Positions 7,548 to 49,248 of a stretch of DNA of 64,000 nucleotides are shown piece after piece; the stretch's first letter is position 1, and each line of letters starts with the position of its first letter. Location of the stretch: the NCBI GenBank assembly GCA_030427635.1, contig JAUIBA010000005.1:150854-214853 (forward strand). Reading direction: 5' to 3'. Source of the DNA: Bacteroidia bacterium (lineage in GTDB: Bacteria > Bacteroidota > Bacteroidia > Chitinophagales > Chitinophagaceae). The notes beneath the pieces are model-generated. The model was not told the origin of the DNA. It saw nothing but the letters and a program-made list of their open reading frames with translations, and did no database searches. Made by a program: the position numbers and the translations under genes.

Positions 7548-9095
7548 TTATGAATTCACAACTACCTGCCACAAATGCGCAAAGTTTGTCCGGAAGTATT
7601 TTGCCAACCCAGCACTTGAGTCAGGAGCGTCATCATGAGCATTCTTATTTGTACCGCTCTGGTCTTGCCTGTATGATGTTAGCTCTTCTATAAAACGTCT
7701 GTACTCAGGTAATTCAAGGCAATCCTCCCGGAAAACAAAATGATTCCTGATAAATGCAGCAGCCTCCAATATGCGTGTATGTTTGTTGGTTGTATTGTTT
7801 ACAGCATCAACCTCACAGTCGCTTCCATCTTCCTCAATTGCCCTTTTGATATTGGTCCTGAATAGTCGCCAGCCGCTGTTACTTTCAATTACTGCTGAGT
7901 TACAAGCATGCTGCTTTAGGAACTCCACACATCTTGGCTCATTAACATCAGTCCCTTTGGTATTAAAGATAATATCTGCCACATATATCTTATTGCCAAT
8001 TAGATACCCAACGATGGCACACAAACTGTCACCCCCTTTATCTGCAGGGTCAATATGCGTGTGCCGGTACTCTGACAGCTTCTCAACAAGTATTTCTTTA
8101 GGATTGTAGTACTTAAGATCAGAGTCCGGGAATAATAGACCTTCTCGCGGCTTGGGGTTCTGCTGATACTGTCGCTGAAAGGCTATGCGTACCTCCTCGT
8201 CTGCATTGTCTCGCATCTTCTTGAGGTCCTCTACTGTATGCATAGAGGGGTCAAGTGCTTCCAGTTCTCCGGCATCATTAACCCCCAGCGCTGGCAGCAC
8301 AAGCTCTTCCCACTCTCCACCTTCCGAAGCGAGCCCCTCAGTCGCTTTCAGGTACCCTATCAGGTCCATCGGGTGAAGTCGCTGCATGATGACAATTACT
8401 GGAGTATCCCGGCTGTTCAGTCGGCTCTTAATGGTAGAGTTCCAGCGCCGGTTTACACGCATCCGCTTGATATCCGCATCCGCATCGTCTGGCTTGATGG
8501 CATCGTCAATGATCAGTGCTCCGCCAAACTTCCGCTTCTGCCCTATTGTTATAAGCAACTCATCGAGCCATTCTTCTATTTCGTCAGTCTCATCAGTCCT
8601 TGTACCAGCACCAAAACCAGTCACCTGCCCTGCTGCACCGGTTGCATACACTCCTCCGCCGGCCGTGGTATACCATTTCTTTTTACTGTCGGTGGACTTC
8701 TTTATACGCACATCAGGAAACAGACGGCGATATTCAGGTGACTGTACAATATCTTTTGTTCCCTCGCTATTGTCGAAAGCCAATGCATCACTGGCAGATA
8801 GATGTATGAACTTCGCAGCTGGGTTCAGCGATAGCCCATGAGCAATAAAGTTCTTTACTGCCAGCTCTGTCTTTCCATATCGGGGAGGGATACTTATAAG
8901 CAGCCGGCGGCATTTACCCGACAGGACACGCTCCAGCGCCCTGGCTATCTGCTTGTGATGCTTACGAACAACAAACTTCCTGTTGTGCAGATTTTTGTAA
9001 AAGTATCTCGTGGAGAACTCCAATGACCTGAGACACTTAACAGTCGCCAGCTTCTGTTTCTTAATTGCCCGTATTTCTTCCTTTGTAACAGACAC
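7548..9095 (-). CDS. terL: Terminase large subunit
   Basis: 515 residues, the size of a phage TerL. The ATPase part shows Walker A at about 68-77 (SIPPRYGKTEL), Walker B at 193-198 (ALIIDD) and a coupling motif (IMQRLHPMDLIGYL). The C-terminal nuclease part starts with HIDPADKGGDS and ends with a DAPDSSAG aspartate motif, as in RNase-H-fold terminases. A short acidic insert (TRTDETDEIEEWLDEL, about 165-180) separates the ATPase motifs. It packages DNA through the portal encoded next to it. Confidence 0.95.
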   Translation of the reverse strand: MSVTKEEIRAIKKQKLATVKCLRSLEFSTRYFYKNLHNRKFVVRKHHKQIARALERVLSGKCRRLLISIPPRYGKTELAVKNFIAHGLSLNPAAKFIHLSASDALAFDNSEGTKDIVQSPEYRRLFPDVRIKKSTDSKKKWYTTAGGGVYATGAAGQVTGFGAGTRTDETDEIEEWLDELLITIGQKRKFGGALIIDDAIKPDDADADIKRMRVNRRWNSTIKSRLNSRDTPVIVIMQRLHPMDLIGYLKATEGLASEGGEWEELVLPALGVNDAGELEALDPSMHTVEDLKKMRDNADEEVRIAFQRQYQQNPKPREGLLFPDSDLKYYNPKEILVEKLSEYRHTHIDPADKGGDSLCAIVGYLIGNKIYVADIIFNTKGTDVNEPRCVEFLKQHACNSAVIESNSGWRLFRTNIKRAIEEDGSDCEVDAVNNTTNKHTRILEAAAFIRNHFVFREDCLELPEYRRFIEELTSYRQDQSGTNKNAHDDAPDSSAGLAKYFRTNFAHLWQVVVNS

Positions 9096-29194: not shown

Positions 29195-29288
29195 ATCATA
29201 GTAGCTCAGTTGGATAGAGCATCAGCCTGCTAACCTGCCTGCCGGCAGGCAGGGCTGAGGGTCATTGGTTCGAATCCAATCCGGATCA
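29195..29288 (+). pseudogene. tRNA-like unit A with 20-bp palindrome in the anticodon loop
   Basis: D arm (GCTCAGTTGGATAGAGC), anticodon stem TCAGC/GCTGA, T arm and acceptor 3' strand are all present, but the 5' acceptor strand (ATCATAG) does not pair with CCGGATC. After loop CTGCTAA (anticodon GCT) the perfect palindrome CCTGCCTGCCGGCAGGCAGG is inserted at 29234-29253. Probably not a functional tRNA. Confidence 0.6.
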
Positions 29289-29332
29289 CTCACAAAGCCT
29301 CGCATTATGCGGGGCTTTTCTTTTTATCTCAA

Positions 29333-29426
29333 ATCATAATAGCTCAGTTGCATAGAGCATCAGCCTTCTAACCTGCCTGCCGGCAGGCAGGGCTGAGGGT
29401 CATTGGTTCGAATCCAATCCGGATCA
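29333..29426 (+). pseudogene. tRNA-like unit B with 20-bp palindrome
   Basis: As unit A, shifted by 138 bp. The loop is CTTCTAA (anticodon TCT, Arg), the same as in the attachment-site copy. The palindrome sits at 29372-29391 between loop and 3' anticodon stem strand. D loop has TTGCATAG instead of TTGGATAG, which removes a conserved G-G. Confidence 0.6.
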
Positions 29427-29470
29427 CTCACAAAGCCTCGCACTATACGGGGCTTTTCTTTTTATATCAA

Positions 29471-29564
29471 TTCATAATAGCTCAGTTGCATAGAGCATCA
29501 GCCTGCTAACCTGCCTGCCGGCAGGCAGGGCTGAGGGTCATTGGTTCGAATCCAATCCGGATCA
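29471..29564 (+). pseudogene. tRNA-like unit C with 20-bp palindrome
   Basis: Third copy, another 138 bp on. Loop CTGCTAA (anticodon GCT), palindrome at 29510-29529, D loop TTGCATAG, acceptor 5' strand TTCATAA again not complementary to CCGGATC. Its terminator has GCAGGGC instead of GCGGGGC. Confidence 0.6.
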
Positions 29565-40880: not shown

Positions 40881-43800
40881 CTACGCTGCTTCTGAATTCC
40901 ATTCCTTCCACCTTGATGTAGCCTGCTCCATTATTTCTGCCAGTACTGCATTCAACTCTTCCACTGACACCTTGCCCCGCAATGTGCGCTTTACAGCAAG
41001 CTGTATCTCAGCGTTGATGTCGGGCTTCTTGTACCAGTCTATGGTGAGATTCTTTTTAATTTCCTTCACTATCTGCTTTACGAGGTCGCTCATAAGGGCA
41101 TTTTCGGTCATGGCCTGCTTGTGTTTTGCCAGTATCTCGTAGAATGCCATTTCTTCATCACTCAGACCAAGGTTTCTTGCACGCTCATCCTCATCTGTCA
41201 TTTCCTGTGCGCGGCGCACCAACTCAAGTATAGTAGTATAGCTGTCGATAGCGTTATCGTGATATCGCTGTATTACTTTTTCTACCTGCTCGCGTAAGCT
41301 GGTATAGCGGATGATATTCTTATGCCTGCGGAGCGCTATTTCATTATTGAGTATCTGGCGTAGCAACTCTATCTTAATGTTCATGCCACTCTTCTGTTCC
41401 TTTGCGCCGAGCAGAAACTCCTCATCAATTATGGAAATATCCGGCTTTTCGAGGCCAGCCATAGCATACACGTCCACTATCTCATCGCTTTCGATGCTCC
41501 GGTGTATCAACTCTTTAATTTTCTCTGCCCGTAACCTTGTTGGAACAGGGGGGCGCTTAATCTTTCTAACCACAACAGCGACATGCTGCATATACAGAAT
41601 GTCAAGTGCGATATCCTGTATGCCGGAATGGCCGGTGACAAGATTCACCAAAGCGCTCATTCGCTTTTCTGCAAGAAGGAAACTGTCACAGCTATCATCT
41701 TGTTTTACCACATGGTCGGCCCCCATCATGGCAAGCTCAAATTTTTCTCCCCGGCTCAATCCCTTCCAGCCTGAATAGTCCAGACCATCGGGCATATAGC
41801 CCTGTAGCTCTGTTATTACATTGTGCATCTCCTCAAAGGCGGCCTCAATGTCGTATGTGGGCTTACCAGAGCCGCCACCGGCAGTGTACTTTTTAGTAGC
41901 ATCCTTCAGCCTGTCGCCTATACCTATGTAGTCTACTATCAGGCCATTGGGTTTGTCTTTAAATACCCTGTTTACCCTTGCTATAGCCTGCATGAGGTTG
42001 TGACCACTCATGATTTTATCTACATACATGGTATGCACACAGGGAGCGTCAAAACCTGTGAGCCACATATCCCGCACTATTACCAGCTTCAACGGGTCGT
42101 CGGGGTTTTTGAACCGCGTTTTTATGGCTTCCAGCTTCTCCTTTGTGCGGAAGTGCGGGCTCCATTCTTTGGGGTCTTTACCGAGATTGGCCGTCATTAC
42201 TACTGCTATTTCCGGGCAGCCATCCAGCTTTACCAGCGCATCATACAGCTTTACGCAGTTGCGCCTGCTCATGCAGGCTACCATAGCCTTGCCGGGCAGC
42301 TCCTTACTGCGCAGGAGGTAGTGGGAGAGCAGGTCTTTTGCCACTTTGGCTACCCGCTCATCTGAGCCTGCGGCATCTTCCACCGCCGCCCACTTCAACC
42401 TATTGGCCTCATCCCTGCCTGCATCGGCTACTATCTCCTCTGCCTCATCATCTATGCCCTCATTGCCCAGGTGCAGTTGTGCCAGCCGTGGCTCGTAGTA
42501 TATACTTTTTGTTGCGCCATCCAGCACGGCCTGCTTTATATCATAAGTATGTATTACCTCACCGAATACCTCTTCTGTATCTGCATCCTTCGTATCTACA
42601 GGTGTACCCGTAAAGCCTATAAAGGAGGCATGGGGCAGCGCTATGCGTATGTTCGCAGCAAAGCCATCCAGCAGTCCGTACTGGGTGCGGTGGCATTCAT
42701 CGGCTATTACTATGATGTTATCCCTGGTGGATAGTACGGGGTGGCTGAGCTCGTTCTTATCGCGCTGCAACCTGAACTTTTCTATGGTACTGAATATGAC
42801 CCCGCCACCGTCGCCACTCAGGTATTCACGCAGCTTGTCGGTACTATCGGCATGCTTTATGTCGCCCACGAGATCCCGGGCAGCTACGAAGTTTTCGTAT
42901 AGCTGTTTGTCCAGGTCGTTACGGTCTACCTGTACCACTATGGTGGGGTTCTGCAGCTCAGGCAGCTTGCTGATGATAGCCGCATATATAGCCATGCTGA
43001 TGCTCTTGCCGCTGCCCTGTGTATGCCAGATGACGCCAATACGCCCATCGCCAAAGGGCTTTATAGCTTTCTTCGTCTGCTCTGTGGCGAACTGTATACC
43101 GAAGAACTGGTGATACTTAGCCCCTTTCTTTATGTAGACTGAGTTGGTGTTCTCATGAAAAATGTAATACCTGATATATTGCAGCAGCCTGTCTTTAGGA
43201 AACAGGCCCTGCAGTAAGGTCTTTAACTGGAAGCTATCGGTGATGTTTCTGCCATCGGTGCTCTTCCAGGGTGCGTACCACTCCATGCTGCTGCTATACA
43301 TGCCGTGCATGGTGTCTTTGCCATCTGATATAATGGTGATGGCGTTATACTCGAACAGGAGGGGGATGTGGTGCCTGTAATGCTGTATCTGATTGAACGC
43401 ATCGTGTACGGTAACCGTATCGTCAAACATGTTCTTGAACTCGAACACAACTATGGGCAGACCATTGATAAACACAACCATATCCGGCCGGCGCTCTGTA
43501 ATGCCGTTTACGGTGAACTGGTTCACTGCCAGAAATTCATTATTGGCAGGGTTCGTATAGTCTATACAATAGATGTGATCCCTGTGTTCCTGTCCGTGCT
43601 CATCTGTCCAGGGCCAGTCTATGCCCTTAGATAGCTTCAGGTGAAAGTCGCGGTTGCGGATATCGAGGTCTGCACCCTTGTTGTAGGTAAACTCCTGTAT
43701 GAGCTCGGCTACTACCGCTGGTGGCAGGTGTGGGTACTGCCGCTCTATGAATGAGCGCAGCCTGTCTTCCAGCACTACCTTGCGGGTATTGCGGTGAATG

Positions 43801-43892
43801 GATGCGCCCTCTGTATAACTATAGCCGAGGCCCTGCAGCCACTCTATGGCGGCCAGTTCCACATCGTTTTCTATGAGCAGGTTTCTTGTCAT
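40881..43892 (-). CDS. hsdR: Type I restriction enzyme, HsdR subunit
   Basis: 1003 residues from ATG 43892 (a longer ATG start at 43931 is possible). N-terminal nuclease with catalytic Asp in RPDMVVFINGLPIVVFEFKN, then motor motifs: HTQGSGKSISM (Walker A), IADECHRTQYG (DEAD box), FTGTPVDTKDADTEEVFG. C-terminal helical domain binds the M-S complex. Last gene of the operon, 60 bp before the receptor gene's start. Confidence 0.95.
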   Translation of the reverse strand: MTRNLLIENDVELAAIEWLQGLGYSYTEGASIHRNTRKVVLEDRLRSFIERQYPHLPPAVVAELIQEFTYNKGADLDIRNRDFHLKLSKGIDWPWTDEHGQEHRDHIYCIDYTNPANNEFLAVNQFTVNGITERRPDMVVFINGLPIVVFEFKNMFDDTVTVHDAFNQIQHYRHHIPLLFEYNAITIISDGKDTMHGMYSSSMEWYAPWKSTDGRNITDSFQLKTLLQGLFPKDRLLQYIRYYIFHENTNSVYIKKGAKYHQFFGIQFATEQTKKAIKPFGDGRIGVIWHTQGSGKSISMAIYAAIISKLPELQNPTIVVQVDRNDLDKQLYENFVAARDLVGDIKHADSTDKLREYLSGDGGGVIFSTIEKFRLQRDKNELSHPVLSTRDNIIVIADECHRTQYGLLDGFAANIRIALPHASFIGFTGTPVDTKDADTEEVFGEVIHTYDIKQAVLDGATKSIYYEPRLAQLHLGNEGIDDEAEEIVADAGRDEANRLKWAAVEDAAGSDERVAKVAKDLLSHYLLRSKELPGKAMVACMSRRNCVKLYDALVKLDGCPEIAVVMTANLGKDPKEWSPHFRTKEKLEAIKTRFKNPDDPLKLVIVRDMWLTGFDAPCVHTMYVDKIMSGHNLMQAIARVNRVFKDKPNGLIVDYIGIGDRLKDATKKYTAGGGSGKPTYDIEAAFEEMHNVITELQGYMPDGLDYSGWKGLSRGEKFELAMMGADHVVKQDDSCDSFLLAEKRMSALVNLVTGHSGIQDIALDILYMQHVAVVVRKIKRPPVPTRLRAEKIKELIHRSIESDEIVDVYAMAGLEKPDISIIDEEFLLGAKEQKSGMNIKIELLRQILNNEIALRRHKNIIRYTSLREQVEKVIQRYHDNAIDSYTTILELVRRAQEMTDEDERARNLGLSDEEMAFYEILAKHKQAMTENALMSDLVKQIVKEIKKNLTIDWYKKPDINAEIQLAVKRTLRGKVSVEELNAVLAEIMEQATSRWKEWNSEAA

Positions 43893-43937
43893 GGGGTGTA
43901 AAAACGGGGTAAAAGGTACAAAATGTTGCATATAATG

Positions 43938-44840
43938 TTATATGTAAGACTTATACGCATTATTCACTCTGTTGATGATGGGTATAGCCTCCATCATGCG
44001 GGTAAAATGGTAGGTGTTATCTACCAGAAGCGACACATATGCCTCATAGTGTGGCCAGAAACGCCGCCTGAAACCATCATCGGCGAAAAGATGTTTCAGA
44101 TAATGTCCCTGCTGCTTAGCCATCAGCATTTCGAGGTATGTGTGCAGATAGTTCAGCTCGTCCCACACATCGGGGTGGTGTATATAATGCCTGTCCACTC
44201 TTGCGGCCTCGTCTATCCTGTCGTTCCAGGCATATACCATAGCTACCACATTGTAGCCAAACTGTTTCCGCTTCGTCTCGAACAGGCTTGCGTCTACATT
44301 GTCTACAATCCGTATTGGTTTCGTATCCAGCCATGCTTCGGCGAGGCCGGCCCATCTATATGCTTCCTCCTTTTCTACGGCCTGGCGCAGCCGCTCATAT
44401 GCCTGAAATATAGCGCCATCTCTTTCGGGCGCCATGTCCCAATCAGCGGCATCGGTGGTTAGACCGTCCTCATACGTTGGTCGCTCCTCTTCCTTTGGCA
44501 GCGTGAACAGCAATTCTATAAATTCTCTGCCTTCAGCATCTGCTATTATACGCGCCGCCCGTGCCTTATCGAGGTATGGGGTAAGGCGGTTATTGCTAAT
44601 GAGTACATAGTCGCCGGCGGGAAATGTATAGTTCTCCATTTCCAGCGTTGCTGAAACATCGTGTATATTGAAAGGGGTACCCGTTTCTCCAAGATACCCG
44701 GCACTGCTCAGTACCACAAAGTCCAGGTCGTGGCCAGGGTTCCAGTTGTGGGGCAGATAGCCATGGATAATATCGTATACACCATCATGCCCGCTTTGGT
44801 CTACAAGGTGTCCGTACCAGTCTCTGTTTTTATATGCCAT
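43938..44840 (-). CDS. Unknown protein inside the type I RM operon
   Basis: 300 residues, no membrane segment. It has a Trp/Tyr-rich start (NRDWYGHLVDQSGHDGVYDI) and a hydrophobic-aromatic end. Middle part contains EEERPTYEDG and helical, charged stretches. Not recognised. It lies between DUF4268 and hsdR genes on the same strand, so it is part of the same operon and may be a defence accessory. Confidence 0.7.
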   Translation of the reverse strand: MAYKNRDWYGHLVDQSGHDGVYDIIHGYLPHNWNPGHDLDFVVLSSAGYLGETGTPFNIHDVSATLEMENYTFPAGDYVLISNNRLTPYLDKARAARIIADAEGREFIELLFTLPKEEERPTYEDGLTTDAADWDMAPERDGAIFQAYERLRQAVEKEEAYRWAGLAEAWLDTKPIRIVDNVDASLFETKRKQFGYNVVAMVYAWNDRIDEAARVDRHYIHHPDVWDELNYLHTYLEMLMAKQQGHYLKHLFADDGFRRRFWPHYEAYVSLLVDNTYHFTRMMEAIPIINRVNNAYKSYI

Positions 44841-44852
44841 AGTGGATAGTGA

Positions 44853-45284
44853 TTAAAGTGCTTTAAGATGGGGTTCAAAATAGCGGTGCATGGCCTCTAT
44901 ATTCGTTCTCAACCATTCGAACTGCTGCGGCCAGTGGGCGGTATCCAACAGGTCTGCGGGCGCAGTCTTCGTTATTTTGGACATGATGCCATCAGGGCGC
45001 TCTACCCACTGCAACTCACCCAAAACCGCGGCGGCATCATTGCTGCACTTTTCCTTCAGCATGTTAAAGCGTTTTGTCGCATCAGGGCCTGTCAGGTAAA
45101 ACTCCACCCTATTCTCTTTTGGGCGGGTGCTGATGATAGCCTCAATGTGTACATCTTTCCCTCCAAAATACACCTCATAGCAGTGTTTGGCATGAGGTAT
45201 CGCAGTGAACCTGCTCTTATAAGTTTCCATGAAAGCTGTAAATGCTTCCCAGTACTTTAGTTGCTGCTCCTGTATTGCTGTCAT
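44853..45284 (-). CDS. DUF4268-domain protein, restriction-associated
   Basis: 143 residues. YWEAFTAFMETYKSRF at the start and RVEFYLTGPDATKRFNML, FEWLRTNIEAMHRYFEPH at the end match DUF4268, often found beside restriction genes. Start overlaps the hsdS stop by 4 bp (ATGA). Function unknown; perhaps a nuclease or regulator of the system. Confidence 0.75.
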   Translation of the reverse strand: MTAIQEQQLKYWEAFTAFMETYKSRFTAIPHAKHCYEVYFGGKDVHIEAIISTRPKENRVEFYLTGPDATKRFNMLKEKCSNDAAAVLGELQWVERPDGIMSKITKTAPADLLDTAHWPQQFEWLRTNIEAMHRYFEPHLKAL

Positions 45285-46519
45285 AGTGCTTGTTCTACCT
45301 GTTTAAGGTCGGCAGGGATGATTTCGCCTGATATGAGCCTGGGGAGGAGATAGTCGCGGGTTGCTGTCAGGTCTTGAATCTCTTGACGATTATTGACTAT
45401 CAATTGAATTAATGGATACACCTTCTTTTCAAATTGAGTACACAATTCGTCGTTTAGAACTATTTCTTCCTCAAGAATATCAGAGGGGCGCACTCTTTGA
45501 TGGCTTCCACTTGTACCGGTAGCCTTAGGTGCTAATTCCTCCATAAACTCTTTGGACGATACCAAACAATAAACAAACGAGAAATAGGGGTCTTGCGGCT
45601 CAAAGATGAGGAACTCCGTACTTGATATGGAATTGGGCAATGGATTAAGAACAGGCCAAATTCTTGGAAATCTTGGATTTAGTTTAGAAAAAAGGATGCT
45701 TCTTTGAGTTATCACTCCCTTATTACTCATAATCTGCTGACCATATTCACCCGATGGATAGCGCCTCTCATCATAAGCAGGTAAGCTATAATGATGGTAT
45801 AATGTATCAGGAAAGTTTGCAGGATTAACTCCCTTCCGGCTATGTGTAAGCAACTCTCCAATTAGTTTTACACTCCACCCATCGGGCAGGTTATCCTTAT
45901 CTATCCCATCTACAAAGTGGTGCCTGAACATAGCCTGCGCCATCTCCTCAAGGGTATGGTTCATTTGCCTGTTCAGCTCTATTTTATCATCGAGGGAGGA
46001 GAGGATGGAGGCGATGCGTTGTTGGGTGGGGAGAGGGGGTAAGCGTAATTTTAAACTCTTTACTATACTAAGATTTATCAGAGGAACAGATGTGCCAGTA
46101 TTCGAATTCCTGATTTCAGTAACAGACTCAGGAGAAGAAAAAGAATAATATGCAAATAATGGAATTACAACCTTTGTATCAAGCCTTGCCCTTATCTGTT
46201 TATTCGAAATAACGTACTTATCGTATTTACAACCATTATCTATAATCCCTACTTGCCCTATTGTCCCTGCAGCTGTGAAAATAATATCATTTGGATATGC
46301 CCAACAATCTAATTCCTCAGCTTTTTCTTCTGTAACAAAAACAAATCCTCCATCAATAAATTTAGGGAACCCTATTGATAGATTATTTCCTCTAATAACA
46401 GGGATTCCTTGCTCTACAAAATATTTACTACTTATGTTACTGCCAAATGGACCTGACTTTATTGCTCCTTTAACGGGCAATAGCACTTCCTCTAACCTAT
46501 ATGTTTTCCATTCGTTCAT
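45281..46519 (-). CDS. hsdS: Type I RM specificity subunit, HsdS
   Basis: 412 residues with two target recognition domains: the first starts MNEWKTYRLEEVL and ends about 165, then the conserved helix LPTQQRIASILSSLDDKIEL NRQMNHTLEEMAQ, then a second half starting LPDGWSVKLIGELL and a second helix (FEKKVYPLIQLIVNNRQEIQ). Determines the recognition sequence. Only one copy; no obvious recombination partner in the window. Confidence 0.95.
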   Translation of the reverse strand: MNEWKTYRLEEVLLPVKGAIKSGPFGSNISSKYFVEQGIPVIRGNNLSIGFPKFIDGGFVFVTEEKAEELDCWAYPNDIIFTAAGTIGQVGIIDNGCKYDKYVISNKQIRARLDTKVVIPLFAYYSFSSPESVTEIRNSNTGTSVPLINLSIVKSLKLRLPPLPTQQRIASILSSLDDKIELNRQMNHTLEEMAQAMFRHHFVDGIDKDNLPDGWSVKLIGELLTHSRKGVNPANFPDTLYHHYSLPAYDERRYPSGEYGQQIMSNKGVITQRSILFSKLNPRFPRIWPVLNPLPNSISSTEFLIFEPQDPYFSFVYCLVSSKEFMEELAPKATGTSGSHQRVRPSDILEEEIVLNDELCTQFEKKVYPLIQLIVNNRQEIQDLTATRDYLLPRLISGEIIPADLKQVEQAL

Positions 46520-46780
46520 TTAGTTACTTTTAAAAGGGGTGGCACCGTACCAGATGGTTGTAAATTTACCATTTTCTATGGCTGTAGAGAAGTGTATGGA
46601 GTCTTTATCGGGCAGTGCCTCCGACCTGAAGAAGTAGTTATTAACGGAGCCGTCTGCCATGCGGGTAATCTGCACATGCAGGGTGTTGAAATCGCTCCTG
46701 TCGTTATACTTTACTCTGAACCGGTCGTTCTGGTTTTCCCTGTCCGGCGGGATGTTTCTTTTTACAAGTTTAGTTTTCAT
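46520..46780 (-). CDS. Small protein between AbiF-like gene and hsdS
   Basis: 86 residues from ATG 46780 (an ATG at 46786 is also possible). Starts MKTKLVKRNIPPDREN and is basic/aromatic with strands (FNTLHVQITRMADGSVNNYF). Its stop directly adjoins the hsdS start. Unknown family; possibly a partner of the AbiF-like protein. Confidence 0.65.
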   Translation of the reverse strand: MKTKLVKRNIPPDRENQNDRFRVKYNDRSDFNTLHVQITRMADGSVNNYFFRSEALPDKDSIHFSTAIENGKFTTIWYGATPFKSN

Positions 46781-46801
46781 GTGCATAGATATTCGTGCGC
46801 A

Positions 46802-47485
46802 TTAAAGTGTATCAATCTGGTTGCAAATGGTGTTAATGTGGTCGAGGCCGTAGAGCAGGCCTGCTTCATCAATGTCCATCCACCGGAACAGCCGGATGAT
46901 AAGGGTGTAGTGCTGCCGGGCATAACTGGTGTCTTTTATAGCCTGACCCGGCAAGAAGCAAACGGGCTCGTGATGGGCTATGCGATTTCTGATGTCATTG
47001 ATAGTGGCGAGCTGGTTAAAGATATAAGTATGATTATACTGAATAGCAGGTGTACTTGCCGGCTTTGCCGGAAGGATTCGTAATAATGAGCGGCCTGTAG
47101 CAGCAAACTGGTGGGAGGCAAACATATACCGCCAAAAGCCGAACCCCAACTCAGCGACGAGTTTATTGTGGGTGTAGTTGTGGTTTAGTTTCGCTACAGC
47201 ATCGTTGATGTTGCTTTTAGTATACCTGCAATTATGATTGTCGAACAATCCTCCCGGGGCGGCAGCATTTTGCAGCCAGTTGCTGCCGTGAATAGCCTGT
47301 AAGTGGCTGTCTATTTTGTTTCTTAATGCTATCTCGAAGCAGCTTATAACGGTAAACAATTCCTGAGACAGACGCAGATTTTTGCGATATAACGTCATGG
47401 CTTTGATAGTACTGTTACTGCACGCCGATAGATACCTGTTCATGCGAACGAGGGTCATAACATTTTCAAAGTCCGCATATCTCAC
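46802..47485 (-). CDS. AbiF-like (Abi_2 family) HEPN protein within the RM operon
   Basis: 227 residues from a GTG at 47485. It matches Abi-like proteins: VRYADFENVMTLVRMNRYLS, LFTVISCFEIALRNKID, and HEPN ribonuclease motif RNRIAHHEP (R-x4-H, about residue 165). Abi_2/AbiF proteins abort infection by cutting RNA. It lies between hsdM and hsdS. Upstream, a 53-nt divergent transcription unit (47500-47588) may make a partner RNA. Confidence 0.8.
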   Translation of the reverse strand: MRYADFENVMTLVRMNRYLSACSNSTIKAMTLYRKNLRLSQELFTVISCFEIALRNKIDSHLQAIHGSNWLQNAAAPGGLFDNHNCRYTKSNINDAVAKLNHNYTHNKLVAELGFGFWRYMFASHQFAATGRSLLRILPAKPASTPAIQYNHTYIFNQLATINDIRNRIAHHEPVCFLPGQAIKDTSYARQHYTLIIRLFRWMDIDEAGLLYGLDHINTICNQIDTL

Positions 47486-47499
47486 GTAGACAGCATATT

Positions 47500-47530
47500 T
47501 TTGTAAGTCAAAAAGAATAATTTACCTTTG
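47500..47530 (+). promoter_or_regulatory. Consensus Bacteroidota promoter in the hsdM-abiF gap
   Basis: TTTG (47500-47503), 19 bp, TACCTTTG (47523-47530): exact match to the Bacteroidota -33/-7 consensus and spacing. It points away from abiF, toward the hairpin at 47543-47576. There is no plus-strand protein gene behind it. Confidence 0.7.
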
Positions 47531-47535
47531 TAATA

Positions 47536-47588
47536 TCTTATTCCCGGTAGCCTCTGGAGCAATTCAAGCTATCGGGTTTCGTTTTTTT
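47536..47588 (+). ncRNA. Candidate small RNA next to the AbiF-like gene
   Basis: Expected start at 47536 (6 bases after the -7 box). It contains a 9-bp stem (47543-47551 with 47568-47576, one G-U), a 16-nt loop CTCTGGAGCAATTCAA, then TTTCGTTTTTTT ending in the hsdM stop codon. About 53 nt long with promoter and terminator of its own, no coding frame. Partner RNA of the AbiF-like HEPN protein is the proposed role, from position only. Confidence 0.5.
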
Positions 47589-49233
47589 ATAGTGTCGGTT
47601 GCGCTTGTTCCCCACCACCAACCAATGATTGCAGATTGTTTTTTATTTTCTGCTGCAAGTGGTTGCTCCTTTCAAACTGCTCATTCAGCTTTGCCGTGAG
47701 TATCTGCATTTTCTCCTCAAACGGTACGCCATCATCTTCCTCTGCCTCGCTGCCCACATACCTGCCAGGTGTGAGCACATAGCCCTGCTCTTTCACTTCA
47801 GTGAGCGTAGCCGCTTTGCAATAGCCATCCACGTCTTCGTGTTTGCCACCCAGGTTGCGCCACTGGTGGTAGGTATCGGCTATGCGCTTTATGTCCTCCT
47901 CTCCAAAGGCGCGCAGCTTACGGCTTACCATAGTACCCATTTTGCGGGTATCTATAAACAGTATCTCGTTGCTGCGTTCACGGTGTTGGCCATCCCTTCC
48001 GTCTCTATTTTTGCTAAGGATAAAGAGGCAGGCGGGGATACCCGTGGTGAGGAACAGCTTATCGGGGAGCTGCACGATACAGTCTACCATGCCGTTCTCT
48101 ATCATATACTCGCGTACGTTCTTCTCGCCCTGTGTGCCGGTGGTCATGGCACCGTTTGCCATTACTATGCCCGCAGTGCCCCTGGGGCTCAGGTGGTGCC
48201 ATATGGTCTGGAACCACATATAGTTGGCATTGCCGTTGGTAGTAAATGCCTCTTTGGGGCCAAATAACCGGGGGTCTTCGTCATGCAGCACCTCAGGGTG
48301 CCACTGACTGATGTTGAAGGGCGGGTTCATGAGGAGGTAGTCGGCCCCTTTGCTGCCTGTTATATCCGGAAACTTATCTTCCAGCAGGCTGTCGCCCAGC
48401 TTCACCTCAAAGTTCATGTTGCGCAGCAGCAGGTTCATCTTGCACAGGCGCAGGGTGCCCTCGTAGCGCTCCTGTCCATATATCATGTAGTCGTGCGTGT
48501 AGCTGTGCGCTTTCAGGAATTTCACCGATTGCACCATCATGCCACCACTGCCTATGGCAAGGTCCATGATGCGGCCACTAAGTGGCTCTATCATCTCTAC
48601 CAGTAGCTGCACTATGCTGCCGGGGGTAAAGAACTGCCCCGCACCGCTGCCCTCTGCCATGGCAAACTTGCCTATGTAGTACTCGTATATGCGCCCGTAC
48701 AGGTCGGTTTCTGGGTTCTTATCTTCGCTGAACTCCTCTGATGAGAACAGATTGATAAGGCCTGCCGTTTGCACAGCCGAGAGCTGGCTCTTTACGAATA
48801 TGGGCGGGAGCAATCCCCTGTGGTCGGGGTTGGTAGCGGCCAGCAGGTCGTCTATGAGCATGAAGGCATTGTCCACCTTTACCTTTATATCGTCCTGCGT
48901 GGCGTTCTGCCGCAGGTAGGGCCATGTAGCCTCCCGGGGCAGCATGTATACCTTCTTGCTGGTGTACTCCAGCGGGTCGGTAAGCGTAGCCTGCTTTTCA
49001 GCTTCTTTAGTAGTATAGTAGGGCGACTCCGGCTCGTTGAGCTCCATCTCCAGTTGCGTGTAGCGGGCATGGTATCGCTCGCTGAGGTGCTTTACAAACA
49101 GGAGGGAGAGTACATAGTCTTTGTACTGGTTCTCTGCCACTGCTCCGCGCAGCTCGTTGGCGGCGTTCCACAGTTTGTCTTCAAATGATATATCGGCCTT
49201 AGCGGCGCCTTTTGTTTTCGTCTGTTTAGCCAT
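47587..49233 (-). CDS. hsdM: Type I RM modification subunit, HsdM
   Basis: 548 residues from ATG 49233 (the longer frame would use a TTG at 49248). N-terminal helical domain (FEDKLWNAANELRGAVAENQ), SAM motif DLAIGSGGMMV (DPAxGSGG variant with L for P), catalytic NPPF in LLMNPPFNISQW. Methylates adenine together with HsdS. First gene of the operon. Confidence 0.95.
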   Translation of the reverse strand: MAKQTKTKGAAKADISFEDKLWNAANELRGAVAENQYKDYVLSLLFVKHLSERYHARYTQLEMELNEPESPYYTTKEAEKQATLTDPLEYTSKKVYMLPREATWPYLRQNATQDDIKVKVDNAFMLIDDLLAATNPDHRGLLPPIFVKSQLSAVQTAGLINLFSSEEFSEDKNPETDLYGRIYEYYIGKFAMAEGSGAGQFFTPGSIVQLLVEMIEPLSGRIMDLAIGSGGMMVQSVKFLKAHSYTHDYMIYGQERYEGTLRLCKMNLLLRNMNFEVKLGDSLLEDKFPDITGSKGADYLLMNPPFNISQWHPEVLHDEDPRLFGPKEAFTTNGNANYMWFQTIWHHLSPRGTAGIVMANGAMTTGTQGEKNVREYMIENGMVDCIVQLPDKLFLTTGIPACLFILSKNRDGRDGQHRERSNEILFIDTRKMGTMVSRKLRAFGEEDIKRIADTYHQWRNLGGKHEDVDGYCKAATLTEVKEQGYVLTPGRYVGSEAEEDDGVPFEEKMQILTAKLNEQFERSNHLQQKIKNNLQSLVGGGEQAQPTL

Positions 49234-49248
49234 AGGTGTAAGTGACAA

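Follow-up and report, generated by a model that had tools for sequence, protein, structure and literature searches.

The abiF gene of a type I restriction operon and the predicted RNA gene of about 50 nt beside it very probably encode a toxin and its RNA antitoxin, of which the latter would be transcribed independently and act in trans on the AbiF protein; we base this reading on sequence comparison and on analogy with a published system. Because the restraint of AbiF by a structured RNA has already been published (PMC12373285; also Rfam family RF03085, and the AbiF-RNA complex of PbAbiF, 8vz6, as described in PMC12737573), the original prediction went too far in calling this an undescribed defence system. 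The AbiF-RNA pairing is known, and what is new here is an RNA outside Rfam together with its different wiring.

The window, by which we mean the whole 64,000-nt stretch of DNA analysed, carries abiF on the minus strand (46802..47485), sandwiched between hsdM (47587..49248; a type I methyltransferase gene, Pfam N6_Mtase and HsdM_N) and hsdS (45281..46519; Methylase_S), which run on the same strand, as do hsdR (40881..43931; HSDR_N, SWI2_SNF2 and T1RH-like_C) and an 88-aa ORF that matched nothing in Pfam or PADLOC (46520..46786). Another two genes of the restriction operon, at 43938-45284, encode a DUF4268 protein (PADLOC PDC-S11) and a 300-aa product for which Pfam gave no match. This abiF is the sole Abi_2 match in its own genome, and the intergenic DNA carrying the hairpin described below is likewise single copy there; a repeated element of this genome is ruled out, the 15 other matches being short with E of at least 0.4. 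Elsewhere in the window, at 29201-29556, there are three tandem tRNA-like Rfam matches, spaced by about 138 nt and not confirmed by ARAGORN.

The 227-aa product of abiF scored 37.1 bits against Pfam Abi_2 (PF07751; cut-off 25.6 bits) and thus belongs to this family, and its GTG start lines up with the start in relatives in alignments A1 and A3. A HEPN catalytic motif is predicted at R166-N-R-I-A-H171 (46973..46990, minus strand) from invariant residues and profile alignment: R166, N167, R168 and H171, which fit the HEPN pattern R-N-x3-H, are invariant in 59 of 59 aligned proteins, namely the window protein, 13 relatives and proteins from 45 of 80 loci (the best 80 of 553). Profile alignment to RF03085-type AbiF gave a probability of 87.5% (E 3.6e-6) and covered the motif, and RF03085-type AbiF in turn matched 8vz6 at E 4.8e-61. 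The window protein alone gave no match to 8vz6 at E up to 10; the 8vz6 protein has 300 aa and is of the RF03085 type, whereas the window clade has 227 aa and its profile matches 8vz6 weakly, at E 0.37. The likeness to 8vz6 (PbAbiF-AbiFr) is by description, this complex being an AbiF dimer with one RNA per monomer and the HEPN site at the interface (PMC12737573, PMC12373285). We infer that the AbiF of this locus is a toxic RNase.

The small RNA unit is predicted to be transcribed divergently from abiF. Its promoter, TTTG-N19-TACCTTTG (47500..47530, plus strand), consists of TTTG at 47500-47503, a spacer of exactly 19 bases and TACCTTTG at 47523-47530, with a box that recurs in related loci. We take TTTG-N19-TACCTTTG to be the Bacteroidota-type promoter. 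The RNA gene itself, of a family that we call R1, is predicted by model R1 and covariation at 47535..47588 on the plus strand (about 54 nt, with putative ends). It comprises the 5′ arm CCCGGTAGC of the closing stem (47543..47551; sequence, fold and two-sided changes), a loop in which CYCUG and CAA are conserved and a small inner hairpin is predicted (47552..47567; invariant columns of alignment A2), the 3′ arm GCTATCGGG (47568..47576; sequence, fold and covariation) and the T tract TTTCGTTTTTTT (47577..47588), which ends in seven T at 47582-47588. The two arms form nine pairs, one of them G-U. Stem and T tract together (47543-47588, plus strand) resemble the end of an intrinsic terminator, and the T tract touches the hsdM stop codon on the opposite strand (47587-47589). 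A role as hsdM terminator is ruled out by the T tract lying on the other strand, and likewise by the RNA standing downstream of abiF elsewhere. Within the window's ORF list no plus-strand ORF of at least 80 aa overlaps 47536-47588. The exact promoter, the 9-bp hairpin, the seven-T tract (47500-47588, plus strand) and the lack of a protein gene on that strand had all been claimed in the original prediction and are seen as claimed.

The window has two occurrences of the pattern TTTG-N19-TANNTTTG where 0.26 would be expected, and because two were also reached in 5 of 100 shuffles, the promoter pattern alone is weak evidence. Folding of 47532-47592 gave −16.9 kcal/mol (z −3.28), which none of 200 shuffles equalled. 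Model R1, whose 49 building sequences include the window site's own, scored 75.7 bits at this site and 15.2 bits at the second-best place in the window, which has one R1 copy only and no tandem repeat. The claim that an independent small RNA unit stands next to an AbiF-like HEPN gene is supported as a prediction. To judge from the sequence, a small RNA would be made as a transcript of 47535-47588, its start and end both being predicted positions. Conservation is the decisive evidence, at the level of sequence comparison, that the hairpin unit is real.

A scan of 84,980 species genomes gave 553 confirmed places, the best 80 of which are the loci used here, and R1 was built on alignment A2 of 49 distinct RNAs from those loci, the window site and three relatives. 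R1 found the RNA at abiF in 77 of these best 80 of 553 loci, so that the original prediction passes its own check on whether the hairpin is conserved beside related abiF genes. The RNA is upstream and divergent in 51 of the 77 (L057, at 1,587 nt, among them), downstream on the same strand in 19 and downstream and convergent in seven, one of which (L103) touches the end of the matched abiF region; the upstream same-strand layout published for RCd22 was found in 0 of 77. Fifty of the 77 are seeds of R1 or identical to one, and the remaining 27 are all 26 downstream cases and L057. The three loci missed by R1 are two that start at a contig end (L053 and L084) and one with full flanks and a variant hairpin upstream (L110); setting aside the two at contig ends, the RNA is near abiF in 77 of 78 loci from the best 80 of 553. 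In 72 of the 77 loci the RNA is preceded, at a distance of no more than 20 nt, by a TANNTTTG box, compared with 0.7% of 20-nt windows, and it accompanies every placement (46/51 upstream, 19/19 downstream same-strand and 7/7 downstream convergent); the five loci that lack it include L044 and L049, both titled Acidobacteria, and L088, where the RNA is the second of two tandem copies. Two RNA copies stand close together in L014, L039, L044, L087 and L091 by the model and in L088 by reading, and L109 has a partial second copy.

On a quick tree of 85 AbiF proteins, 82 of them with labelled placement, the placement changed at least four times on the best tree and at least twice when starred branches only were trusted, the latter changes being forced for the downstream convergent group; proteins whose RNA is downstream on the same strand make up a single clade (support 96). 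At its best, the RNA pairs with its own abiF ORF no more strongly than with the ORFs of other loci (mean z −0.06, n=77), and antisense to the abiF reading frame is not supported. This varied placement and the lack of preference for the own ORF are best explained by a trans-acting product.

The predicted structure of the RNA also shows compensating changes. In A2, 99.2% of stem cells are paired and two-sided changes affect 9 of 13 pairs, including seven of the nine closing-stem pairs (49 sequences); the cells with two-sided changes number 67 against 13.8 in shuffles, none of 500 shuffles reaching that count, and sliding the partner by 1 to 3 columns lowered pairing to 20–45%. Every base of the loop motifs CYCUG and CAA is invariant in A2 save for Y. 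Of these seven bases, three stay unpaired in the predicted fold and the other four make up the first two pairs of the inner hairpin, and the loop is likely, as far as such conservation can indicate, to be a protein-binding face. No long variable segment able to act as a guide is present in A2.

The association extends beyond the 80 loci. Among 99 genomes (the window's own and relatives), AbiF matches occur in 16 genomes at 20 places, and a divergent RNA-like unit was recognised upstream, by reading, at 18 of the 18 places read, the window included; these units are of the window's type, close variants of it, or the longer types b and c described below. The two other places are G007, which has the published RF03085 RNA, and G060:C122. 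A class-wide search gave AbiF matches in 21 of 295 genomes, with an upstream RNA at 22 of 25 distinct genes (by model R1, pattern or reading); no RNA was seen at the other three, which are broken or partial (L130, L132) or a weak match (L133). In a plasmid collection 409 records match the protein, and from the six best we fetched five, two Neisseria gonorrhoeae records being alike and one of them taken. These loci, from Chryseobacterium, Hymenobacter, Phocaeicola, Riemerella and Neisseria gonorrhoeae, lie outside R1's set, and the RNA is upstream and divergent in 5 of 5 (E 2.1e-18 to 2.5e-7). The Neisseria gonorrhoeae record (L218), with its AbiF relative and R1-like RNA, is labelled plasmid and looks like a chromosome because of its size of 2.17 Mb. 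Carriage by phages is not supported, as 26 viral-contig loci with distant Abi_2 relatives gave a single R1 match, at E 0.98, and a phage collection gave three distant records.

The RNA is also found where the toxin gene is damaged or missing. An in-frame stop interrupts abiF at 5 of the 80 loci (best 80 of 553), and the RNA is present in all five. When R1 was run over the 99 related and 295 class-wide genomes, which overlap as sets, 35 distinct matches were obtained. Seventeen of these stand beside AbiF, four of the genes being broken or partial, and 18 stand away from it, of which 13 are RNA-like and solitary and five are plain terminators without the loop bases. No AbiF remnant was found in the fetched stretches around the 13 solitary RNAs at E up to 0.01; eight have the loop pattern (six with a promoter box), one is a variant type with a box, and four have a broken loop, as is expected if selection relaxes after loss of the toxin. 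The genome G031 has the RNA and abiF flanked by a pfkB gene and a flavin reductase gene; at the equivalent chromosomal site in the same genus, G030 and G008 have the RNA only, and the G008 copy is decayed. The solitary copies could mean that the RNA is used apart from AbiF. One solitary RNA, in genome G035 (L186, 6507-6561), has a type I restriction operon on one side and two recombinase-like genes, so labelled by reading, on the other.

The closest published counterpart is RCd22 of Clostridioides difficile, which binds and neutralises AbiFCd, whether in cis or in trans, neutralisation being lost with stem-breaking changes and kept with stem-preserving ones (PMC12373285). Both systems combine an Abi_2 HEPN protein bearing R-N-x3-H with a small structured RNA, predicted in our case, that has a promoter and a terminator of its own (PMC12373285, for RCd22), and because of this common anatomy an antitoxin role of the R1 RNA is supported. 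RCd22 differs in being upstream on the same strand, in having two RF03085 motifs and in also attenuating abiF transcription (PMC12373285), whereas the window locus has one RNA, without an RF03085 match and on the opposite strand (downstream in some relatives). An abiF attenuator as in RCd22 is ruled out by orientation, with 0 of 77 upstream on the same strand.

The R1 RNA is not recognised by Rfam release 15. Searching for RF03085 (threshold 37 bits) brought nothing from the window with E relaxed to 10, nothing at E up to 1 from 17 related loci, and no match in L168 (the window's site), L036, L045, L060 and L077; conversely, R1 failed to find the RF03085 sites it was given (L024, L030, L031 and L032). 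By eye the two RNAs look alike in having a GC-rich closing stem and loop bases of the kind CYCU (5′ side) and UCAA (3′ side), with a T-rich stretch after the stem in the three RF03085 sites read; the RF03085 consensus has GCCUCU and GCUCAA, R1 has CYCUG and CAA, in a similar stem-loop. This suggests common descent of R1 RNA and RF03085, a kinship that rests on short shared bases because neither model finds the other's RNAs. RF03085 is present in 3 of 60 relatives' genomes, and in the two loci whose frames were read, L192 and L193, abiF follows on the same strand. In L192 the RF03085-type RNA (1962-1998) has a TAcaTTTG box and a T-rich stretch, with abiF just 3′ on the same strand; both layouts occur within one genus. 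In the open-licence literature searched, as far as it was accessible, no description of the R1 RNA or of a divergent AbiF RNA was found.

Two further RNA types, defined by patterns and by reading of sequences, accompany other Abi_2 genes. Type b, which is longer and likewise divergent, accompanies Abi_2 genes that are more distant and has UCCUCUC...GAUGAUGAA enclosed by a CCCGG/CCGGG stem (L019, 1392-1451, minus strand; L020, L022, L125, L129, L131 and others; 11 aligned), and gave no Rfam match in the seven of its loci scanned. Type c, also divergent from Abi_2 genes, has GCCUCU...GUAA inside a stem such as CUUGGU/AUCAAG, and a separate terminator hairpin then follows in several loci (L018, L026, L027, L119, L120, L121, L122, L128, L134 and L135). 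Two RNA types meet in L098, which has the type-c pattern upstream of abiF (7595-7633, minus strand) and the R1 RNA downstream. A Chryseobacterium plasmid (L214, 2658-4681) has two differing Abi family genes in a row, the second with an R1 RNA; the first shares 41% identity with the RF03085-type AbiF of L192 and has no RF03085 match, with a weak R1 match (13.7 bits) upstream.

According to the reading we prefer, the RNA would bind the AbiF protein in trans and restrain its RNase, with the loop bases probably contacting the protein, and the antitoxin dose would be set by the separate promoter rather than by terminator read-through ahead of the toxin. When the RNA is lost on phage transcription shut-off or RNA decay, AbiF would be freed, RNA would be cut and the cell would arrest; this trigger is borrowed from type III systems, to which the pair may be compared by analogy. 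In the ToxIN family of type III systems an RNase toxin is held by an RNA antitoxin, as predicted here, but toxin and antitoxin structures are of another kind, the toxin is co-transcribed and the antitoxin is a repeat-array RNA (PMC12373285). Co-transcription with a terminator between antitoxin and toxin is not the layout of the loci studied here, the RNA being on the opposite strand or downstream in 77 of 77, and the window RNA is single and free-standing rather than a tandem repeat. In the upstream divergent layout a read-through abiF mRNA would carry the complement of the RNA, and the RNA could for this reason act chiefly as antisense to abiF or by transcriptional interference, in the manner of type I systems, which we consider quite improbable. 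Only 19 of 50 upstream-divergent loci have an abiF-directed TANNTTTG box within 150 nt, compared with 20 of 26 loci whose RNA is downstream (p 0.0016). In 28 of 35 upstream-divergent loci the next ORF upstream is read in the same direction as abiF (p 0.0005 against one half, a null that takes no account of operons, bacterial neighbours often running together), and in the window no abiF-directed box is present within 215 nt of the abiF start; all this would suit such a role. However, the RNA is downstream in 26 of 77 loci, 19 of them on the same strand and hence not antisense to the leader, no duplex preference for the own ORF is seen, the layouts show no significant difference in neighbour bias (p 0.085), and the invariant loop bases are not demanded by pairing to a complementary leader. 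That the RNA is a two-way antitoxin, which cages AbiF and is in addition a perfect antisense to the read-through abiF leader of the upstream-divergent layout, is rather unlikely; if it were true, strong transcription of the operon, the window's upstream gene being hsdM, would make AbiF and soak up the antitoxin, and restriction-operon activity would become the trigger.

The proposal that AbiF is the ancestor of Cas13 (PMC12737573) brings up an RNA that activates or guides AbiF, as crRNA does for Cas13, and its presence nearby in 77 of 78 flanked loci is equally expected of a needed cofactor. We regard this as very improbable, since the RNA is retained beside broken abiF genes and is also solitary, the C. 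difficile RNA inhibits (PMC12373285), and A2 is without a long variable guide-like segment. The stem and T tract look like a terminator, and 5 of the 35 genome matches are indeed plain terminators without the loop bases; but a mere intrinsic terminator or DNA regulatory site, with no RNA partner of AbiF, is an almost negligible prospect given that the promoter box is found in all three placements, that the loop bases are conserved and that the unit is tied to one protein family on either side of the gene.

The original prediction had also seen the pair as functionally wired into a restriction operon, and this part is not supported. Abi2/AbiF/AbiD HEPN proteins are known to be embedded in R-M operons (PMC3710099), the same protein family and neighbourhood as here, without an RNA partner in the description given in the accessible part of that source. 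Searches seeded with HsdM, HsdS and HsdR of the window found type I matches in 4 of the 80 loci (best 80 of 553) within the fetched sequence, which is short for some. The abiF gene lies in or near type I genes in the window, L190, L039, L044, L053 and L055; it is flanked by hsdM and hsdS in L055, and the pair is flanked by two hsdM genes in L190. Such cases would be expected if the pair were an accessory of type I restriction, triggered by attack on restriction, but the scarcity of type I matches, neighbours that are diverse and include a single N6_Mtase, and the occurrence of the pair on plasmids make this extremely improbable. Among the 99 nearest proteins of 54 loci, a set without ORFs over 2.4 kb from which the HsdM-like neighbour of L039 is therefore absent, there were one N6_Mtase, four NOV_C, three YhcG_C and three RhuM (first 25 of 116 Pfam families), and the top PADLOC families matched three proteins each. 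Judged by its sequence context, the pair is an autonomous module that sits in restriction operons sometimes, with some copies among defence-like genes, and its nesting in this restriction operon looks incidental.

AbiF with its RNA has been proposed as the ancestor of Cas13 (PMC12737573), and a trans-acting RNA is a step needed before an RNA becomes a separately encoded guide. A large clade in which the RNA is freed from the toxin transcript, shifts in position around the toxin gene and is in places solitary would show that the trans-acting RNA is what persists. The gain would be an RNA family beyond Rfam release 15 and an easy means of locating such pairs throughout Bacteroidota.
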